A stretch of 64,000 nucleotides of DNA. Origin: Prochlorococcus marinus XMU1406. GTDB taxonomy: Bacteria; Cyanobacteriota; Cyanobacteriia; PCC-6307; Cyanobiaceae. Below, piece after piece: positions 13,993 to 36,487 of the stretch. Within the stretch, counting starts at the first letter, position 1. Every line of letters begins with the position of its first letter. Position numbers and translations under genes: made by a program. The notes beneath the pieces were generated by a model. The model was not told the DNA's origin and made no database searches. It saw only the letters and a program-made list of their open reading frames with translations. Where the stretch lies: NCBI RefSeq assembly GCF_017696055.1, contig NZ_JAAORG010000003.1:248001-312000 (forward strand), read 5' to 3'.

Positions 13993-14115
13993 TAAGTAAT
14001 TTTACTTAGTAGAATGAATTTAGCATTTAGGAAGTGCTTAGCTGGTTAACGTCAGAAAATCTGAATTTAACTAGTTCGTCATGAGCTTGCCTGTGGGATA
14101 CTTGCAAGCTCTTTC
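13993..14115 (+). ncRNA. Candidate small RNA in a gene-free gap
   Basis: The 460-base gap 13784-14243 has no credible reading frame. It holds a 7-2-7 palindrome (TAAGTAA/TTACTTA, 13993-14008), a 7-bp stem CTGGTTA/TAACTAG (14042-14074) enclosing CAGA-aaa-TCTG, then GAGCTTGC/GCAAGCTC (14083-14111) and a short T-rich tail. The order of stems and end hairpin without an upstream gene on this strand suggests a stand-alone RNA. The boundaries are guesses. Confidence 0.35.
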
Positions 14116-19949: not shown

Positions 19950-20051
19950 TTATTTCAAGTAAATAGATCCTCTATAAGTAAGCTTTATAACATTTTCTTC
20001 TTGTTTTCTACAATATACGAATGACTTTCCATTGTAATACATGCTTACCAT
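19950..20051 (-). CDS. 33-aa LTYRG microprotein, copy 1 (riboswitch-controlled)
   Basis: ATG at 20051 with AGGAG 7 bases upstream. Protein begins MVSMYYNGKSFVYC and ends IKLTYRGSIYLK. The second copy at 35067-35168 has the same length and 23 or so identical residues. The NGKSF/LTYRGSIY pair resembles DUF4278-type cyanobacterial small proteins (YRG motif); that family link is inference from memory. Sits downstream of an NtcA-type promoter and a structured leader, so it is probably a nitrogen-status effector. Confidence 0.75.
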   Translation of the reverse strand: MVSMYYNGKSFVYCRKQEENVIKLTYRGSIYLK

Positions 20052-20130
20052 GATGCAGCTCCTAAACTTGCTCAAGTCCCCGTCCTATGGCTTGAGTCGT
20101 ACTGCGGTCTATCAGATGGTAGATCGGACG
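20052..20130 (-). promoter_or_regulatory. Structured 5' leader, riboswitch candidate, copy 1
   Basis: In RNA sense (minus strand): CGTCC (20130-20126), a small stem TCTA/TAGA, then hairpin CTCAAG (20096-20091) / CTTGAG (20076-20071) whose loop holds GGACG (20085-20081), able to pair with the upstream CGTCC as a pseudoknot. The Shine-Dalgarno (20063-20059) lies 7 bases after the hairpin. In the second copy the closing pair changes from C-G to A-T on both sides. Size, pseudoknot and following micro-ORF fit the glutamine-sensing 'downstream-peptide' class of marine picocyanobacteria; consensus match is not verified. Confidence 0.65.
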
Positions 20131-20134
20131 ATTT

Positions 20135-22614: not shown

Positions 22615-22728
22615 ATAAAAGATTTCTTAGATGAATTTTTTGATTTATGTACAGAATATCAACAAGAAATTCCACCCCAGAAGATCGCTGAAATTTTAAG
22701 AGAGTATGCAGATAAATTAGATGAATGA
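22615..22728 (+). CDS. Small soluble frame without canonical start (about 37 aa)
   Basis: Gene-like helical sequence KDFLDEFFDLCTEYQQEIPP followed by QKIAEILREYADKLDE. The open frame begins at 22585, but the only possible starts are ATT (22597), ATA (22603) or ATA (22615). Either a non-standard start or a lost ATG. Listed from the ATA nearest the conserved-looking part. Confidence 0.4.
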   Translation: MKDFLDEFFDLCTEYQQEIPPQKIAEILREYADKLDE

Positions 22729-22871
22729 TAGATAATGGGAGACCTAAGAAGGTATTAAGAGAATATAATTTCTAGCAAAATTTATACAAATTTTTATTAA
22801 AGTTGGAATAAATTTTTTGAAGATATTTTCATTGCAATTATAAATAATTTGAGATTTTTTTTGATCCTTAA

Positions 22872-22904
22872 TCCGTACAATTTTGTTCCTCTAACCGCAC
22901 ACAT
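22872..22904 (+). repeat. Upstream element, partial copy 3
   Basis: TCCGTAC, a divergent middle, GTTCCTC and AACCGCACACAT are shared with 27985-28017 at the same 33-base length. It ends about 61 bases before the ATG at 22966, a position like that in the other copies. Probably part of a promoter or leader. Confidence 0.55.
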
Positions 22905-22965
22905 AAAACTTGAAATTAACTATTCAAATGAATTAGAACATACTTGTAGCCAAGGGGTAAGTCTT

Positions 22966-23118
22966 ATGGCACTAAATGACAAATTTAATATCCAAGAAAT
23001 TAATTTGGATAAAAAAGACCTTACATTTGATAATAAGCTCAAAAAAATTGAAGCTTATTGGAATAATGAATATACAGAACATCCGAGTAAAAACCATCGC
23101 AAGATTTTTTGTGATTAA
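22966..23118 (+). CDS. YW-HP-CD family microprotein (50 aa)
   Basis: Start at ATG 22966 with AAGGGG upstream; the longer frame from 22849 reads through the shared upstream element and is not credible. Ends IEAYWNNEYTEHPSKNHRKI plus FCD. This tail matches 35320-35502 (FEDYWKRECREHPTNQHC...YCD) and, more weakly, 23321-23467 and 34873-35007. Soluble, helical start. Function unknown. Confidence 0.65.
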   Translation: MALNDKFNIQEINLDKKDLTFDNKLKKIEAYWNNEYTEHPSKNHRKIFCD

Positions 23119-23203
23119 AACTTTAACTTTTAAGTATTATTACGCTTGATTTTTACATAATACCCGTACTAAAGAATAATCATGTAGAAAGGAGGCCAAG
23201 CAA

Positions 23204-23305
23204 ATGACAAATTTAGGTATAGAAATTTTATTTTGGACAATTTTAATTTCTTATCTGGGATTAAGGTTTTCTCAAACTTGGAATGGATTCAAAAAACAGT
23301 ATTAA
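23204..23305 (+). CDS. Membrane micropeptide (33 aa)
   Basis: ATG preceded by AAAGGAGG, a very strong ribosome site. MTNLGIEILFWTILISYLGL then a short polar tail. The frame at 25480-25638 begins with a related sequence but with ATA in place of ATG. Lies 15 bases before the next gene, likely one transcript. Confidence 0.6.
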   Translation: MTNLGIEILFWTILISYLGLRFSQTWNGFKKQY

Positions 23306-23320
23306 TTAGGAGAATAGAAA

Positions 23321-23467
23321 ATGAAACTACAAACTCAGTTCACGGTTCCAAACAAAGAATTAAAAGATCTTGATTATGTTAAGAAAGTAGATTTTTTAGA
23401 AGAAACTTTAAATAAAGAATGTATAGATTATCCAAATCAAGAAGATTGCCTAGTTTGTTGCAATTAA
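23321..23467 (+). CDS. YW-HP-CD family-like microprotein (48 aa)
   Basis: ATG with GGAGAATAG upstream. Ends ETLNKECIDYPNQEDCLVCC plus Asn, aligning with DYWKRECREHPTNQHCLVYCD of 35320-35502 (W lost, Cys kept). The starts also agree (MKLQTQFTVP and MKLFNQFTILP). Cys-rich end could be a disulfide or metal site. Confidence 0.65.
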   Translation: MKLQTQFTVPNKELKDLDYVKKVDFLEETLNKECIDYPNQEDCLVCCN

Positions 23468-23546
23468 AAATCAAAAAATAGCTGTTTTTTAAAAGTAAAC
23501 AAATTTTTATTAGTATTTATAAATTTTCTAAAAGGGAGTTAGCACT

Positions 23547-24065
23547 ATGGAATTAAGATTCTTCCCAATAAATATTTTTAGAGAGACTCCAAAAGTCACA
23601 TTCTTCGATGCCGGCATAGATAGTTCTAATGGTTCTGATGTTGTGATCCATTCTGGGGAAGCTATATCTCCTCCAGATGATTTAAAAGATGAGCAATATT
23701 ACATTCACAATCATCAAATTGACCACAATTTAGTTATCACTGGAGAAAGGAAATTTGTTTTAATAAATCCTTCCTGGGATGAACCTCATCATGTGATTTA
23801 TTTAAATAGATCTATGGGAGCATTAGAAATTCCTATAGGAACTTATCACAGATCTATCTCAAGTAAAGAAGGTAGTATTGTTTTAAACCAACCCAAAAGA
23901 GATAAATTTTTTGATCCTACTAAAGAATTTATCCCTCAAAAATTAGACAAAATTAATTTAGTTAAGGCAAGAAGAAGTCCGCCTGTTTATTGGATTTACG
24001 AAAATAACAAAATCAAAAGAGTCTATTTTAATCCTCTAGAAAGAAAAGTTAAAACTCTTGTTTGA
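23547..24065 (+). CDS. RmlC-like cupin protein (172 aa)
   Basis: ATG with AAAGGGAG upstream. HNHQIDHNLVITGERKFVLI and MGALEIPIGTYHRSISS look like the two cupin strands, with His pairs able to hold a metal. The C-terminal third (LVKARRSPPVYWIYENN) is outside the fold. Immediately upstream of a LOG-family gene, so probably co-transcribed. Specific function unknown. Confidence 0.65.
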   Translation: MELRFFPINIFRETPKVTFFDAGIDSSNGSDVVIHSGEAISPPDDLKDEQYYIHNHQIDHNLVITGERKFVLINPSWDEPHHVIYLNRSMGALEIPIGTYHRSISSKEGSIVLNQPKRDKFFDPTKEFIPQKLDKINLVKARRSPPVYWIYENNKIKRVYFNPLERKVKTLV

Positions 24066-24066
24066 A

Positions 24067-24963
24067 ATGAAAAAATATATATCCCCTAGTAATAATTTAA
24101 AAAACCTGAATTTAATTATTAATTCTGATACTTATAAATTGGCTCACGAAGATATTGGTCTACTACGCCGAAATGAAATGCGTGGAGTTAGGATGCTTCT
24201 TGAAATTACTAAACCAGATTTAATCCTTGAAGAAAATAAAATTCTTTCAACCATAATTATTTTTGGAGGCGCAACCATTACAGAAGAATCAAATATAAAA
24301 AAGAGAATTGAAAATATAGAAGAGTTAATTAAAAAAAATCATAAATCGATACTTCTAAAACGAAATTTAAATAGATTAGAAAATTTGCTTCTAATGAGTC
24401 ATTACTATCAATCCGCAAGAGAGTTTTCTAAACTTGCTTCAATTAGTAATCAAAATAAAAACTGTAATTCTCACGTGATTGTGACAGGTGGGGGGCCTGG
24501 GATTATGGAAGCTGCCAATAGAGGTGCATTTGAAGCAAATTGTAAATCTATAGGGTTAAATATCAGTCTTCCTAATGAGCAAATCCCTAATTCTTTTATA
24601 ACACCAGGTCTTTGCTTTAAGTTTAATTATTTTGCATTAAGAAAGATCCATTTTGTCATGCGATCAGTGGCTGCTGTATTTTTCCCTGGAGGTTTTGGAA
24701 CGCTAGATGAATTATTTGAACTATTGACACTTTGTCAAACAGGAATGAAAACTAAAATCCCAATCATACTTTTTGGTAGAGAGTATTGGAATAGGATAAT
24801 TAACTTTGAATATTTAGCTGATCTTGGATTAATTGAAGATGAACATTTAAATCTTTTCCAATATGCAGACACTGCATCAGAAGCATGGAAAATTATCAAA
24901 TCATCAAAAAGCCAGCCTAGAAAAATACAAGCTGACTTGATAACAAATGTAAAAGAAGATTGA
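24067..24963 (+). CDS. LOG-family protein (lysine-decarboxylase-like fold)
   Basis: 298 aa from ATG 24067, which removes the short overlap produced by the TTG at 24058. The two signature motifs are present: VTGGGPGIMEAANRGAFE and FFPGGFGTLDELFELLTLCQ. LOG proteins cleave nucleoside 5'-monophosphates to base and ribose phosphate (cytokinin activation in plants, purine salvage or detoxification in bacteria). An N-terminal extension of about 60 residues is as in other cyanobacterial members. Confidence 0.88.
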   Translation: MKKYISPSNNLKNLNLIINSDTYKLAHEDIGLLRRNEMRGVRMLLEITKPDLILEENKILSTIIIFGGATITEESNIKKRIENIEELIKKNHKSILLKRNLNRLENLLLMSHYYQSAREFSKLASISNQNKNCNSHVIVTGGGPGIMEAANRGAFEANCKSIGLNISLPNEQIPNSFITPGLCFKFNYFALRKIHFVMRSVAAVFFPGGFGTLDELFELLTLCQTGMKTKIPIILFGREYWNRIINFEYLADLGLIEDEHLNLFQYADTASEAWKIIKSSKSQPRKIQADLITNVKED

Positions 24964-25134
24964 TTAATAAGTATTTGATATTTTGTTTTTCATGCTTTCA
25001 ATCTTATTGATTAATTCATCTAAGCATTCTGTATTATTTTGCTCTTGTCTTTTATGGCTTTGACTTTTTTGAGTACTAATAAATTTCTTACTTTTATATA
25101 TTTTATTTAAAATATCTTCAGAAATTACAGGAAT
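24964..25134 (-). pseudogene. Start-less relative of the LD-LIN family (56 codons)
   Basis: Open frame read from ATT at 25134: IPVISEDILNKIYKSKKF ... CLDELINKIESMKNKISNTY. The C-terminus matches 28089-28226 (WLDKLINNIEDMKNKISKNS). An in-frame TAA lies just upstream and no ATG, GTG or TTG precedes the conserved part. Either it has lost its start or it uses ATT. Confidence 0.45.
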
Positions 25135-25304
25135 GAATAAGCAATATTACCAAATCGATTGACCAGTCAAACTTTAGCAGCATTTCATACAAACCTAACC
25201 ATCACAAATTAACTAAGAAAATCTAAATCTCTTTAGTTAGGTATTTTCTACGATGTTTTTATTTGAAATTCTGATTTGAATTAGTAAAGGGTATAGATAT
25301 TCCT

Positions 25305-25412
25305 ATGGAAAAATCATTTCTGAATTTCATTTATTGGATCTTAGTTAAGTCAGCTGAAAGTTACTACGGAGATTCATTAAAAACAGAAGTACCATATACA
25401 CCTTATTTTTAG
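25305..25412 (+). CDS. Small protein (35 aa)
   Basis: ATG start after AAAGGG. MEKSFLNFIYWILVKSAESY, an amphipathic to membrane helix, then an acidic/aromatic end. Function unknown. Confidence 0.4.
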   Translation: MEKSFLNFIYWILVKSAESYYGDSLKTEVPYTPYF

Positions 25413-25479
25413 TTTTGGTGGACCTTAACTTTTAATATTAGATTTCTAGTTTAAGAGTTATTAGTTTGTAATTAATTTA

Positions 25480-25638
25480 TCAAAAAAAACAATATGGGTT
25501 ACTTATAGATTCACTACAAAATGTTCTCTTACATGGAATTTCTTTGACTGATTGTGAATAAATTTTAACGGTAAGGATCTCTCCAAAATTAACTAAAACT
25601 ACAATCAGAAGAAGTAGCTCAATTGCGAGGTTGGTTAT
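25480..25638 (-). CDS. Membrane microprotein with apparent ATA start (52 aa)
   Basis: An AAGGAGGG ribosome site stands 7 bases before ATA-ACC-AAC-CTC, reading (M)TNLAIELLLLIVVLV. The start of 23204-23305 is the same with ATG (MTNLGIEILF). The frame stays open for 52 codons and ends with a Cys-rich segment PCKRTFCSESISNPYC. So either ATA initiates or the gene lost its start very recently. Confidence 0.5.
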   Translation of the reverse strand: MTNLAIELLLLIVVLVNFGEILTVKIYSQSVKEIPCKRTFCSESISNPYCFF

Positions 25639-25715
25639 AAGATTACCCTCCTTAAATTTATATAAAAACCCTACAACGTCAAAATAGGTATTGAATAGAG
25701 TTTAAATTCCTATTT

Positions 25716-25880
25716 TTAGCCATCGAGATTCTTTGGTACTGGACTAGATTCACAATTTTCGACGCATTCTTCTAAAGATTTTTCAGAATTACTCTTAATT
25801 TCGCAACTACGAAGACAATCATAGAAGGAATACTTGGGATCTAATTCATTTTTGAATTGTTTATTTCTAAATGTATTCAT
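25716..25880 (-). CDS. Twin CX3C microprotein (54 aa)
   Basis: ATG start with AGGGAG upstream, inside the end of the previous gene. CLRSC, 13 residues, CVENC: two CX3C motifs on predicted helices, as in 8784-8942. Starts 2 bases after the stop of 25883-25990, so co-translated. A disulfide-stabilised helical hairpin is plausible. Confidence 0.6.
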   Translation of the reverse strand: MNTFRNKQFKNELDPKYSFYDCLRSCEIKSNSEKSLEECVENCESSPVPKNLDG

Positions 25881-25882
25881 GA

Positions 25883-25990
25883 TCAAACTCCCTTTGATTT
25901 TTTTTCAAGTTGATTAATTAATTTATCCAACCAAAGAGTGTTATTGATCTTTTTTGTATTTTTAAAGTATTTCGTTTTGTAAGTACTCAT
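25883..25990 (-). CDS. LD-LIN family microprotein (35 aa)
   Basis: ATG with GGAGG upstream (GGAGGTTTTACTTC). Basic start (MSTYKTKYFKNTKKIN) then LWLDKLINQLEKKSKG, related to WLDKLINNIEDMKNK of 28089-28226. Followed after 2 bases by the twin CX3C gene. Function unknown. Confidence 0.55.
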   Translation of the reverse strand: MSTYKTKYFKNTKKINNTLWLDKLINQLEKKSKGV

Positions 25991-26180
25991 GAAGTAAAAC
26001 CTCCAATCAGTGGAACTAATTTAAAGGTGATGATTCAAATTTCCTAGAGCAAAAATACTGATTATGAATTTAGTGAAATATTTTAAAAATGATTAATTTA
26101 TAGTTTTAATTTTAGGTATTAAAACTCTTGATTCTTGTATATAACAAATACTAAATAACTTCTAAAAAAGGGGGTTAATT

Positions 26181-26321
26181 ATGACTTACGGAAATCTAAT
26201 TAAAAATAAAATTCAACATGAATTTGGTGGTTTGTTTGATACGTTATCAATTGAGAGAAAATTAACTGATGCTCAAATGGAATGTATGCGATTTGGAATT
26301 TGTGATTATGCTCCAAGATAA
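26181..26321 (+). CDS. Small soluble protein (46 aa)
   Basis: ATG with AAAAAGGGGG upstream. Helical (TYGNLIKNKIQHEFGGLFDT) with an end carrying two Cys (MECMRFGICDYAPR). No family recognised. Confidence 0.55.
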   Translation: MTYGNLIKNKIQHEFGGLFDTLSIERKLTDAQMECMRFGICDYAPR

Positions 26322-26378
26322 GTTGAGGAAGTTCCCTTTTTTCATTATTAATTTGAATTTATTTAAAAAGAAGGGTAA

Positions 26379-26687
26379 TTAGCTCCTCCTCACCCAATCG
26401 GGAGATCCACTAAACCAATCAGCAAGATCATCATTTTTGGGATCAAAATGATTTTCAGTTTCTAAACCATCAAGGCCAAGATTCTGGATAAGTCCATTTA
26501 TTCCATCTGATTTTTGCTTACCATATCTTCTTAAGCTATTAGCTTTCTTAAGCCATGTCCATATAGTTGAATTATGTTTTGCAAACTTTTCTATATAAAT
26601 TCTATCTTCCAATGAGACAGGTTCATCTAGTGAAATCCTCTTTATAATATCCTTAATTTTTAAACGAGTCTTGTTGGTTAGAAACAT
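26379..26687 (-). CDS. Conserved hypothetical protein (102 aa)
   Basis: ATG start. Basic helical N-terminal half (KTRLKIKDIIKRISLDEPVS ... KFAKHNSTIWTWLKKANSLR) and acidic end DDLADWFSGSPDWVRR. Reads like a small helical domain; no known function. Confidence 0.65.
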   Translation of the reverse strand: MFLTNKTRLKIKDIIKRISLDEPVSLEDRIYIEKFAKHNSTIWTWLKKANSLRRYGKQKSDGINGLIQNLGLDGLETENHFDPKNDDLADWFSGSPDWVRRS

Positions 26688-27075
26688 ATTTATAAAAGAA
26701 GTTAATGTTTTATAAAAGTTTTTTTTATGAATGTCTTGTCAATCTTTATTTCAAGAAAAAGTATTTTTTAGAGGCTTTTCAGGGACAAATATATTTATTT
26801 AAAAACAGGTGTATATAATTGGTAAAAAAGACTACTTAATTTGATTTATATAACTTATATAAAAACGATTTCTGTATAAGTTTCTCTACATAATTTAAGA
26901 TTTAATTTATAAAAAAGGATAAGAAAAAATTTACATTAACCTTGGATTAAAAATAAGGGGACGCTAGCTCCTTATAAAAGATTTATACAAAAACATAAAA
27001 AGTTAAATCAAGTACTGAAAGATATTTAAAAAATAAATACTATAAGTTTAAATAATTTTATAGAAATTCAAATTA
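26688..27075. other. Gene-free spacer
   Basis: About 390 bases with no credible frame on either strand. One hairpin ATAAGG...CCTTAT at about 26953-26976 precedes the cupin gene by roughly 100 bases and may lie in its leader. Nothing else is visible. Confidence 0.4.
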
Positions 27076-27501
27076 ATGATCAAGAATTTATTCATTGCAT
27101 TAGCTTTTGCATTAATGCTTATCAATCCAAGCATTTCTATAGCGGCAGAATCTCCTGTTGATGTACAAGAGATCTTTACCTCTTCAGAAAACATTGATGG
27201 AGATAATTTTAAGTATCCAAAAGGAAAAGCTGAAATGCGTTTGATAAGAGTAGAAGTTGAAAATGGAGCAACTATACCAATGCACTCTCATCCTGTACCT
27301 TTACTGGGTCATATTGAAAGTGGTGAATTAACTCTTGCGGAAAAGACAGGTATTAGTAAAACCTTTAAGGAGGGGGATTCATTTGTTCTCTCAGCAAATA
27401 CTCCTGCTCATACAATGGCTAATAGTGGTAATTCTTCAGCAGTTATGTGGGTTGCTGTAGCTTCAGCAGAAGGTGTGCCTACTTTAAATCCTGAAGAATA
27501 A
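27076..27501 (+). CDS. Exported cupin protein (141 aa)
   Basis: Signal peptide (MIKNLFIALAFALMLINPSI, cleavage about SIA-AES), then one cupin: IPMHSHPVPLLGHIESGELT and FVLSANTPAHTMANSG, with three His able to hold a metal. A periplasmic or lumenal single-domain cupin. Substrate unknown. Confidence 0.8.
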   Translation: MIKNLFIALAFALMLINPSISIAAESPVDVQEIFTSSENIDGDNFKYPKGKAEMRLIRVEVENGATIPMHSHPVPLLGHIESGELTLAEKTGISKTFKEGDSFVLSANTPAHTMANSGNSSAVMWVAVASAEGVPTLNPEE

Positions 27502-27678
27502 ACTACCCGATTGACTGTCAGTCCACAAATAACTAAATATTTTTATCTCGCTCTCTCGAGATTAGTTAATGCTTTTTCAAAAGTAGAAAAGAAAGTACAA
27601 ATGCTATTCAATGCAACCAACAAAAGAACTACTGATCTTCCATGTTGATTTAATTAAAGTGTTCTTTGAGTCATACTC

Positions 27679-27861
27679 TTAATAATCGTCGTTATAATCG
27701 GATGGACTACCAGTTAAAGAACAAACAACTGATTCCTCTTTTTTCATTTCTTTTATTTCCATTATTGGTCTGCCCATTTTCTTAAGAACATTTATATCTT
27801 CTTTAGTCTGACATCGAGCAATTATGTTTCCTTTTTGATCAAAGCAACTGTAGTAAGTCAT
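27679..27861 (-). CDS. Conserved small protein (60 aa)
   Basis: MTYYSCFDQKGNIIARCQTK, a beta-hairpin opening with two Cys, then EDINVLKKMGRPIMEIKEM and an acidic end. Starts next to the duplicated block 27886-28010, which therefore lies between two divergent genes. Function unknown. Confidence 0.6.
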   Translation of the reverse strand: MTYYSCFDQKGNIIARCQTKEDINVLKKMGRPIMEIKEMKKEESVVCSLTGSPSDYNDDY

Positions 27862-27885
27862 TTTATTAAATGCAATTTAAAGTTT

Positions 27886-28010
27886 ATGGTTGATTTCAGT
27901 TGTAGCAACGCAACCAACTCATGACAACCATATTTCTAATTTAAGTCAGCCATAGATTTAAATGGCTAAAAAAACATACCTCTTTCCGTACCTAAATGTT
28001 CCTCAAACCG
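27886..28010 (+). repeat. Duplicated 125-bp upstream block, copy 1
   Basis: Starts with ATGGTTG (27886) pairing with CAACCAT (27925-27931); inside, AGTTG/CAACT can pair. The conserved joint CTCATGA precedes the 3' arm. The distal part has ATACCTCTTTCCGTACC and GTTCCTCAAACCG. The inverted copy at 35560-35684 has the same length. It ends about 78 bases upstream of the ATG at 28089. Confidence 0.7.
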
Positions 28011-28088
28011 CACACATTAGATACCCAGTGTTTTAGTCGAATCAATTAGAATAAAGAGGTATTAAAACGAATATACAAAGAAGAATTT

Positions 28089-28226
28089 ATGAGTGGAGAT
28101 TTTGAGACTCTTGAAATTAATCAACCAAAAATTACATATTTAAAACCAGAAGACAATACAGAATGGTTAGACAAATTAATTAATAATATTGAGGACATGA
28201 AGAACAAGATATCAAAAAATTCTTAG
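28089..28226 (+). CDS. LD-LIN family microprotein (45 aa)
   Basis: ATG start downstream of the duplicated block. MSGDFETLEINQPKITYL, then WLDKLINNIEDMKNKISKNS. The last 20 residues match 24964-25134 and, in part, 25883-25990. Helical and soluble. Function unknown. Confidence 0.6.
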   Translation: MSGDFETLEINQPKITYLKPEDNTEWLDKLINNIEDMKNKISKNS

Positions 28227-35066: not shown

Positions 35067-35168
35067 TTATCTCAAGTAACTAGATCCTCTATAAGTAAGC
35101 TTTATTGTTTTCTCTTCTTGGCTCTTGCAATATACGAAAGATTTGCCGTTAAAATACATGTTTACCAT
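35067..35168 (-). CDS. 33-aa LTYRG microprotein, copy 2 (riboswitch-controlled)
   Basis: ATG at 35168, AGGAG 7 bases upstream. MVNMYFNGKSFVYC ... IKLTYRGSSYLR. Same length as 19950-20051 with conservative changes. Codon differences are spread over the frame, so it is under protein-level constraint. The opposite-strand frame (35055-35279) is a shadow. Confidence 0.75.
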   Translation of the reverse strand: MVNMYFNGKSFVYCKSQEEKTIKLTYRGSSYLR

Positions 35169-35247
35169 GATGCAGCTCCTGGTCTTGATCAAGTCCCCGT
35201 CCTATGGCTTGATTCGTACTGCGGTCTATCTAATAGTAGATCGGACG
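35169..35247 (-). promoter_or_regulatory. Structured 5' leader, riboswitch candidate, copy 2
   Basis: CGTCC (35247-35243), stem TCTA/TAGA, hairpin ATCAAG (35213-35208)/CTTGAT (35193-35188) with GGACG (35202-35198) in its loop, Shine-Dalgarno at 35180-35176. All distances equal copy 1. The hairpin's closing pair differs from copy 1 on both sides (A-T for C-G). Confidence 0.65.
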
Positions 35248-35251
35248 ATTT

Positions 35252-35319: not shown

Positions 35320-35502
35320 TCAGTCGCAATAGACTAAACAATGCTGATTAGTTGGATGTTCTCTACATTCCCTCTTCCAATAGTCTTCAAATAAATGGTT
35401 ATCTCTATCAAGATTTCTTGTTATTTCTTCCATTCTGTTTCCAGCATAATTAAATGCTTTTAGGTATCTTGGAAGGATTGTGAATTGATTGAATAGTTTC
35501 AT
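35320..35502 (-). CDS. YW-HP-CD family microprotein (60 aa)
   Basis: ATG with a strong AGGAGG 6 bases upstream. MKLFNQFTILPRYLKAFNYA, a helical middle, then FEDYWKRECREHPTNQHC and an end in YCD. The best-preserved member of the family (others 22966, 23321, 34873). Its upstream region is the inverted 125-bp block at 35560-35684. Three Cys in the tail suggest a disulfide or metal site. Function unknown. Confidence 0.72.
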   Translation of the reverse strand: MKLFNQFTILPRYLKAFNYAGNRMEEITRNLDRDNHLFEDYWKRECREHPTNQHCLVYCD

Positions 35503-35559
35503 TTAGACCTCCTAGATCTATACTTATATTGTCCTCTTATAGCCTTGAAATTTATAGGT

Positions 35560-35684
35560 CGGTTTGAGGAACTATTAGGTACGGGAAGAGGTATATATTT
35601 TGAATCAAAAAATACTAAAGCAGTCCTAAAATTAATACATGGTTGTCATGAGGCAGTTGCAGGGATACAACTGAAGCCAACCAT
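35560..35684 (-). repeat. Duplicated 125-bp upstream block, copy 2 (inverted)
   Basis: Minus strand: ATGGTTG (35684-35678)/CAACCAT (35645-35639) enclose CAGTTG/CAACTG, a nested two-stem element of 46 bases with CTCATGA in the joint. Then come ATACCTCTTCCCGTACC and GTTCCTCAAACCG. Exactly as long as 27886-28010. Ends 58 bases upstream of the 35502 start. Confidence 0.7.
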
Positions 35685-35917
35685 AAATTATTAGAGATCA
35701 ATTCAAGATTTAAAACACACTCATTATTTAAAAAGAAATCTTCTCCACTTTAGATAAAACTAAAATAAATCAGGATTTGAAAACAATGTAATCATAGATA
35801 CCAACAGGTATTTAGCTAATTGATTATATATTTAACACACGAGTTAACCCGTTCCAATTTGTTGACTCTGAGGTTTTACCGTTGATTCCTTATCTTCTGA
35901 AAGTTGTTCCTTGCAGC

Positions 35918-36121: not shown

Positions 36122-36487
36122 ATGTCATTCTTAAATAAATTCTCGATTAAAGATATCATTCTCTCAAGCAAAGAGGCATATCAAAAGGAACTCAAGAACA
36201 ACGGTGTGGGTTCACAAATAGGAAGGTCATTATTTAATAAATTTTCGATTAAAGATATCATTCTCTCAAGCAAAGAGGCATATCAAAAAGAACTCAAGAA
36301 CAACGGTGTGGGTTCACAAATAGGAAGGTCATTATTTAATAAATTTTCGATTAAAGATATCATTCTCTCAAGCAAAGAGGCATATCAAAAAGAACTCAAG
36401 AACAACGGTGTGGGTTCACAAATAGGTAAGTCATTATTTAATAAATTCTCGATTAAAGATTTTTCCTTCAATATTTCCAACAGATAA
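36122..36487 (+). CDS. Protein of 34-residue tandem repeats (121 aa)
   Basis: Three full units and a partial fourth of LFNKFSIKDIILSSKEAYQK plus ELKNNGVGSQIGRS. The units are nearly identical at DNA level. Each unit is an amphipathic helix followed by a Gly-rich linker. No family recognised; it resembles a leader-like or scaffold protein. Starts 30 bases after the previous gene. Confidence 0.6.
   Translation: MSFLNKFSIKDIILSSKEAYQKELKNNGVGSQIGRSLFNKFSIKDIILSSKEAYQKELKNNGVGSQIGRSLFNKFSIKDIILSSKEAYQKELKNNGVGSQIGKSLFNKFSIKDFSFNISNR
36125..36463 (+). repeat. 102-bp tandem repeat, about 3.3 units
   Basis: Units at 36125-36226, 36227-36328, 36329-36430 and a 33-base partial unit. Only a handful of substitutions separate them, so expansion was recent and stays in frame (102 = 3 x 34). 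Confidence 0.85.

Follow-up and report, generated by a model that had tools for sequence, protein, structure and literature searches.

A family of microproteins encoded in Prochlorococcus ends in a tail laid out like the C-terminus of CP12, the protein by which carbon fixation is turned off, and within this genus its genes go with a tandem-repeat DNA element of fixed architecture. Viruses carry members of the family too, and these copies show a low pN/pS. We met the element and the family in a 64-kb stretch of contig 3 of the 1.65-Mb genome of Prochlorococcus marinus XMU1406 (hereafter the window), for which an earlier note had suggested a common regulon of small proteins. The CP12-like nature of the tail is a point beyond that note, and the identity of the family is more interesting than the element. 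We propose, with confidence about evenly poised between yes and no, that a genus-specific tandem-site element puts CP12-tailed, GAPDH-binding microproteins under common control and thereby tunes the Calvin cycle.

A tandem-repeat element and the genes behind it

An Rfam search of the window returned a match to Yfr20 at 14021-14110. According to the available part of its description, Yfr20 is the sole noncoding RNA (ncRNA) of genomic island 5 in strain MED4, an island that responds to phosphorus starvation and high light (PMC2518516). Taking the match and this description together, we read the window as, most likely, the equivalent of island 5 in high-light Prochlorococcus. Among the matches listed, at least 80 named genomes carry the same element as the window, under the labels Prochlorococcus or Synechococcaceae. 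We found no literature on the element or on these microproteins among open-licence titles and abstract starts.

Table 1. Elements, associated sequences and small genes of the window, in window coordinates
Feature	Position	Strand	Remarks
Gln-II riboswitch	20071-20133	-	Rfam search
Element, type C	22866..22900	+	repeats CCTTAATCCGTAC / CCTCTAACCGCAC, 22-bp register; upstream of P2
TTAGAACA box	22933..22940	+	35 bp after second repeat of type C element
P2, 50 aa	22966..23118	+	Tyr and Arg replace tail cysteine pair
P3, 48 aa	23321..23467	+	tail ECIDYPNQEDCLVCCN; no own element within 400 bp
Hairpin block	27885..27932	+	TATGGTTG...CAACCATA; upstream of type E element
Element, type E	27979..28013	+	repeats CCTCTTTCCGTAC / CCTCAAACCGCAC
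45-aa ORF	28089..28226	+	MSGDFETLEINQPKI...; downstream of type E element; non-member
P4, 44 aa	34873..35007	-	N-terminal half and YW of family; no CP12-like tail
Gln-II riboswitch	35188-35250	-	Rfam search
P1, 60 aa	35320..35502	-	full tail YWKRECREHPTNQHCLVYCD; type D element upstream
Element, type D	35557..35591	-	repeats CCTCTTCCCGTAC / CCTCAAACCGACC; upstream of P1
Hairpin block	35638..35685	-	upstream of type D element

The element consists of two CCTYWAWCCGTA-like copies arranged as direct repeats in a 22-bp register. Its full length is 35 bp, with the 13-bp repeats two helical turns apart, and across aligned sites the first repeat reads CCTYWAWCCGTAY and the second CCTCWAACCGNAC. The core TTCCTCNAACCGNNC has three exact matches in the window, at 22886, 27999 and, on the minus strand, 35557; with up to two mismatches there are eight against 1.35 expected, a count that 0 of 100 shuffles reached. 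The whole genome holds five elements, the three of the window plus C1:351160-351191 and C3:7425-7456. The earlier note had placed a 33-base element at 22872-22904 and 27985-28017, and both are present, identical at 27 of 33 positions; the full block that it saw upstream of 35320-35502 is a third copy, on the minus strand. It had also given the first two sites the same flanks, which is not so: the upstream sequences differ, a hairpin block being present at 27979 and 35557 and absent at 22866.

Of 101 genomes sampled from the genus, 95 have at least one element match (up to two mismatches), with 0 to 6 per genome, while the same pattern read backwards, our control, matched in 15 of the 101, at most once per strand. 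Outside the genus the picture is different. We searched 61 genomes and found the element in three, all of which belong to the window's genus, and in none of the 58 from other genera.

The repeat architecture is sharply defined. Over 88 sites the two repeats agree at a mean of 8.7 of 13 positions at a shift of 22, compared with at most 5.8 at the other shifts from 16 to 28. Across five gene types, the element holds 1.49 bits of information per base, the surroundings of TTAGAACA hold 0.99, and other flanks 0.60-0.70. Because the sites were picked by the element pattern, the parts independent of that pattern carry most weight. Two such parts are nearly fixed in the training set: CCT in the first of the repeats, at 0.96-1.00, and the final C, at 1.00. 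The spacing to TTAGAACA given below is another. Training sites score at least 36, and the best score in 1.36 Mb of reversed sequence is 13.2 (hereafter the null maximum).

Sites fall into five promoter types, A to E, with 10 left unclassified. In four of them the box TTAGAACA lies 35 bp past the second repeat with at most one mismatch (type A 43/44, B 33/39, C 51/56, E 27/27); type D is without it (0/14). The copy upstream of P2 is, judging by its placement, a possible -10 region or a further site. An upstream hairpin block marks types D (12/14) and E (26/27), as against 0 of 44 type A, 0 of 39 type B and 1 of 56 type C sites. D and E have about 130 bp in common, hairpin block included, and the sequence of the block is kept beyond its stem. 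The D and E blocks fold moderately well alone (z -2.5 and -2.7). The first arm of the hairpin has two mismatch-free copies in the genome; looser matches do not exceed the control (42 vs 46).

We measured the association of element and family on 109 elements, namely those with 900 bp of room among the 127 found in named genomes (at least 118 stretches, 80 of them listed). By a broad profile, which takes in the tail-less genes that come second in types A and B and whose count is raised by its holding genes first found downstream of elements, a family member lies within 800 bp downstream of 92 of the 109 elements, against 320 of 5,450 random positions (5.9%). The counts by type are 33/33 for A, 22/23 for B, 27/28 for C, 9/9 for D, 0/14 for E and 1/2 for unclassified sites; the type E element precedes a 45-residue protein outside the family. 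A strict tail profile, less affected yet also holding some genes found downstream of elements, places a member within 800 bp downstream of 55 of the 109, against 221 of 5,450 random positions, and on the opposite strand of none of the 109.

Loci fetched by protein divide sharply by type. The element is present at 28 of 28 P2-type loci, 10 of 24 P1-like loci, 0 of 24 P3-type loci (within 400 bp) and 1 of 14 others. The P1-like loci split further, into P1 orthologues, all 10 of which have the element, and a P1 paralogue, which has it at 0 of 14 loci at threshold; two of these 14 have a degenerate element that scores 16.3, above the null maximum. In one other genome (locus L017), a P3-type gene stands directly behind an element. 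Two of the four members in the window, P3 and P4, have no element of their own. P3 follows P2 on the same strand at a distance of 203 bp and may be transcribed by read-through from it.

The suggested common regulon is thus borne out insofar as the element goes with the family across the genus, but the P1 paralogue, P3-type genes and P4 of the window are without the element and the type E target is a non-member. The expected correlation in other strains appears at P2-type and P1-orthologue loci and is absent from the 58 genomes of other genera. From these patterns we infer co-regulation of the element-bearing genes. The family itself reaches further: by profile it turned up in 21 of the 61 genomes, which covers 14 of the 34 genera. 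As the element was found in the window's genus only, it seems to have joined a family that is older than itself.

Microproteins with a CP12-like tail

P1 and P2 have the tail YW..EC..HP....C..YCD in common, as the earlier note had claimed. Their N-termini, which it took to be little alike, are related as well: M1 and L3 are invariant, and F7 is found in at least 90% of the 17 rows of our narrow family profile (A1). P3 and P4, put forward earlier as further diverged members, both match the family profile, P4 through its N-terminal 34 positions only (E 2.9e-7) and with no tail. P3 matches at E 5.8e-20 in a profile that contains P3 itself; independent support comes from P3-type relatives, whose matches to the single P1 sequence range from E 4.8e-6 to 1e-3. 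Queried singly, P1 finds relatives (E at most 0.01) in 98 of 101 genomes of the genus, and by profile the XMU1406 genome has six family members.

Three cysteines are the rule in P2-type proteins, occurring together in 41 of 44 distinct sequences of a pattern-based catch that missed L086, with Tyr at the first cysteine. P2 of the window is an exception: it has lost both cysteines of the tail pair, and its promoter element is intact. We therefore propose that it may work without a disulfide or may be decaying.

Members from other genera of the same taxonomic family include proteins of the form MKLRTPF...FWKEECAIHPTSSTCKVYDD. More distant ones end in YW..C..NP....CKIYES (L391) or YW..C..RP....CKLYDD (L390); the L390 member, which is in profiles A6 and A7, overlaps a long opposite-strand ORF and may not be a gene. 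Short ORFs ending in YW..C..xP....CK(I/L)Y(D/E)(D/S) recur in other genera at L169-L173, L391 and L390. The YW-HP-CD tail is the local form of a wider family tail.

Members searched against Pfam and NCBIfam gave no convincing match, nor did single window proteins against Pfam, NCBIfam and PHROGs. The 16 rows of profile A6 matched phrog_2603 (seven rows, best E 0.00029), phrog_627 (six, 0.011) and phrog_24610 (three, 0.012), entries that carry no description. The AlphaFold model of P1 was poor (pLDDT 62.7, pTM 0.35). We dropped a reading of these proteins as RiPP precursors because the C-terminus is their conserved part.

In spacing and in position, the family tail equals the end of CP12, C-x2-(N/H/other)-P-x4-C-x-(V/I/L)-(Y/F)-x-(D/N), with nothing after it. 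The rule C..xP....C..[YF].[DN], which was derived from the family itself, retrieves only family members and one CP12 from 8,081 distinct ORF segments, and nothing from their reversals. The cysteine pair with eight residues between is present in 16 of 16 A6 rows and in the CP12 set, and absent from P2 of the window.

Searched against the PDB, each of the four family profiles tried places CP12 first. All three matches of A1 at E up to 10 are CP12 (best E 0.016); A3, which includes phage members, puts CP12 first of two (E 0.26). The wider profile A6 has as its top four of six CP12 (0.0009, 0.003 and 0.0064) and CBS-CP12 (0.042), though it holds two sequences from the CP12 search (L165 and an L169-type locus) along with L166, found by both CP12 and family searches. 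A7 omits the L165, L166 and L169-type sequences and adds one found through the element; its top four of five are again CP12 or CBS-CP12 (E 0.008, 0.061, 0.098 and 0.52). Since a reversed family profile, run as a control, matched an unrelated PDB chain at E 0.014, as strong a match as the narrow profile gives to CP12, the CP12 claim cannot stand on E-values by themselves. What carries it is the identity of the PDB matches and their end-to-end register.

Aligned directly to CP12 with hhalign, family profiles reach P values of 1.5e-4, 1.3e-6 and 9e-6. In 41,222 ORF segments, a CP12 C-terminal profile ranks the family next after CP12 and CP12-like tails, with an L018 member fetched through the element at E 0.0012, members fetched through CP12 at 0.0013 to 0.0059, and the first unrelated segment at 2.0. 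A profile of full-length CP12 separates the segments less well, since in L174 an ORF beside a partial CP12 scores E 0.017, ahead of most family tails. PF02672, the Pfam family of CP12, is matched by five of 16 A6 members (best E 0.0027) and by one of 17 in A1 (0.053); L165, L166, the L169 type and one phage copy (13 bits) fall below its cut-off. Nine of 20 sub-cut-off PF02672 matches end at model position 70, and eight of these nine show the tail.

Single sequences resolve the relation poorly. P1 alone retrieved no CP12 from the PDB, where its two matches were unrelated chains (E 0.64 and 1.2), and the four window members had no CP12 match in Pfam. Of 11 tails shuffled 5,000 times each, three were clear (0, 1 and 0 shuffles reaching the score) and the rest weak, with 129 shuffles reaching the score for P1, 478 for a P2 orthologue, 256 for P2 of the window and 867 for the P3 type.

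What the microproteins have in common with CP12 (PF02672; PDB 3b1j, 6gfo, 3zdf) is the C-x8-C pair, Pro at C+4, V/I/L and then Tyr/Phe after the second Cys, an acidic extreme C-terminus, small size, and carriage by cyanophages. Unlike CP12, they have no CP12 body, no AWD_VEE motif and no N-terminal cysteine pair. No row of A1 or A6 contains AWD_VEE, a test that discriminates weakly because the genus's own CP12 is also without it. Nor does any row of A1 or A6 have the N-terminal cysteine pair, also missing from the genus's own CP12; a single A6 row has two cysteines, placed unlike those of CP12. The microproteins further differ in the YW or FW that leads into the tail, in their new N-terminal segment, in having several paralogues within one genome, and in an extra Cys in YCD members, and mostly His in place of the Glu that precedes the second Cys invariantly in the CP12 set.

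From these comparisons we conclude that the tail either descends from the CP12 tail or was shaped to match it. As members fail other criteria for CP12, we do not file them there: they are CP12-tail-like microproteins, not CP12. In the accessible text of a review that names eight CP12 classes (PMC3906501), the C-terminal region is the part of CP12 visible in GAPDH/CP12 complexes (3b1j); its CP12-C classes, like the CP12-C forms reportedly described by Stanley et al. 2013 on CP12 variants, could include relatives of these microproteins. The same text describes the plant GapB C-terminal extension and CBS-CP12 (PMC3906501; PDB 5nmu), where a CP12 tail likewise serves as a module outside CP12, but the carrier here is a short segment, not an enzyme subunit or a CBS domain.

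Phage copies of the family

Viruses encode the family as well. Gene product gp144 of phage P-TIM68, annotated as hypothetical, is a clean member, and 52 loci on viral contigs (IMG/VR) encode relatives. Among the 48 that can be read from the start, 38 have the tail, seven end without it and three are cut by the contig end; the other four are missing the start and have the tail. The gene hsp20 lies directly upstream in all 46 phage loci with at least 200 nt of flank (48 of the 52 loci were entered). In P-SSM2 the protein is tail-less and its gene overlaps the end of hsp20. Over 26 full phage copies pN/pS is 0.12, and the tail (0.123) is not more constrained than the head (0.112).

Viral contigs had no element by exact pattern, and the 222,871 bases of phage loci searched by score gave a best value of 11.3, below the null maximum. 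A pattern-based scan of IMG/VR likewise found no relative of the P2 orthologue.

In the accessible portions of two sources, cyanophage CP12 is considered to divert flux away from the Calvin cycle and into the pentose phosphate pathway (PMC7760959, PMC3037559). The phage microprotein parallels cyanophage CP12 (PMC3037559, as far as its available text goes) as a phage-borne small protein with a CP12 C-terminal tail, and P-TIM68 has both. It differs in that gp144-type proteins have 44-51 residues and follow hsp20, and that gp144 is annotated as hypothetical. P-TIM68 and P-SSM2 each have another match above the CP12 cut-off elsewhere, which in P-SSM2 covers the last 24 model positions only.

Proposed mechanism and alternatives

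We propose the following mechanism. The element would most likely be a tandem site for one putative DNA-binding activator, which would place several paralogous microproteins under common control and induce them, probably under stress. Their C-terminal 20 residues would act as a stand-alone CP12 GAPDH-binding tail mounted on a short family-specific N-terminal segment. This tail, bridged by its cysteines, would bind Calvin-cycle GAPDH, either by itself or competing with CP12, and in this way tune carbon fixation; one phage copy would presumably serve the same metabolic steering as phage CP12. The activator half is proposed because the architecture is conserved, and the GAPDH half because of the CP12 relation and phage use. 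Activator binding, co-expression, disulfide formation, GAPDH binding and redox control are what we infer here beyond the sequence comparisons themselves. More tentatively, as a reading that we think somewhat less probable than not, the multi-copy CP12-tail set of picocyanobacterial islands could form a graded bank of GAPDH redox switches under one genus-specific activator, with the phage copy as a second Calvin-cycle effector besides CP12.

High-light Prochlorococcus are among the most abundant photosynthetic cells and have few regulators. If the proposal is true, a hidden regulon of CP12-tailed proteins would be an added layer of control on their carbon fixation, several small island genes and the phage gene behind hsp20 would gain a testable role, and the CP12 tail would be seen to spread as a free module. 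Since viruses of these cells also carry such a protein, the microprotein set may be an unrecognised dial on ocean photosynthesis.

Other explanations of the tail and of the element have to be weighed. The tail could be a metal-binding knuckle (C-x2-H-x4-H-C-x3-C), making these proteins small metal or redox carriers or sensors and the CP12 likeness convergent; P1, the P2 orthologues and most phage copies do keep C, H, H, C and the penultimate C. Members from other genera, however, keep only C..H.....C and end in CKVYDD, CKVYEG or CKLYEV, nearer the CP12 pattern, and the best PDB match of every family profile is CP12, so that we consider a knuckle unlikely. Still less probable, in our judgement, is the absence of any regulon, with paralogous operons duplicated together with their upstream DNA and the element an ordinary promoter part. 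Duplication is the best explanation for what types D and E have in common around the hairpin block, and even the 35-bp spacing is common to A, B, C and E. Yet the flanks of A, B and C are dissimilar while repeats and spacing are kept over many genomes, and a general promoter part would exceed 0-6 sites per genome.

We give little credence to the idea that the element is not a DNA site but works in an RNA leader, as a riboswitch or sRNA target. Prochlorococcus has many ncRNAs, according to the available part of PMC2518516, and the window itself contains two Gln-II riboswitches; but at gathering score Rfam matched none of the three elements, and at a relaxed threshold it matched nothing over 22700-28200, which includes two elements. 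Against shuffles, the type C leader folds no better (z +1.09), and RNAalifold returned no structure for 50 type D, type E and unclassified sequences, divergent rows among them. Exact direct repeats with a 22-bp period are characteristic of sites bound by proteins, which also counts against a leader. Equally improbable to us is a site for a known regulator: NtcA, SphR/PhoB or RpaB. We used GTAN8TAC as the NtcA motif and an HLR1-like octamer for RpaB. GTAN8TAC is present at 25 of the 46 sites of type A and 12 of the 39 of type B, but at none of types C (0 of 56), D (0 of 15) and E (0 of 27) and at 1 of 10 unclassified sites; CTTAACC, for SphR/PhoB, is in 0 of 183 type A-E sites and 3 of 10 unclassified ones; and the HLR1-like octamer is near none of 193. 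NtcA, SphR and HLR1 sites were accordingly rejected as not kept across gene types. The phosphorus response of the equivalent MED4 island (PMC2518516, in its available text) favours a known regulator, and Pho boxes are likewise direct repeats in helical phase upstream of stress-responsive island genes. SphR boxes, though, are 8-bp repeats with 3-bp linkers in the accessible text of PMC1906773, an 11-bp register against the 22 bp of the element, with another consensus. A tandem site for one activator remains our preferred reading of the element.

Several smaller observations concern neighbouring genes. Type B operons (L103, L115 and L009) begin with a 61-residue protein (MPSTPIKSCNKYVLSYKD... 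in L103), and weak relatives of it occur in the phages P-HM1 and MED4-213 (E 9e-4). Each Gln-II riboswitch of the window overlaps the start of a 41-residue ORF (35067-35192 and 19950-20075); the two ORFs are very similar, with C-terminal ends IKLTYRGSSYLR and IKLTYRGSIYLK, and the riboswitch at 35188-35250 sits between P1 and P4. A 121-residue ORF at 36122-36487 consists mostly of three near-identical 34-residue repeats (LFNKFSIKDIILSSKEAYQKELKNNGVGSQIGRS). The window gene at 23547-24065 adjoins P3, and in another genus (L388:1695-2606) a single ORF behind a family member fuses a homologue of this gene to a part that we take to be OsmC-like.
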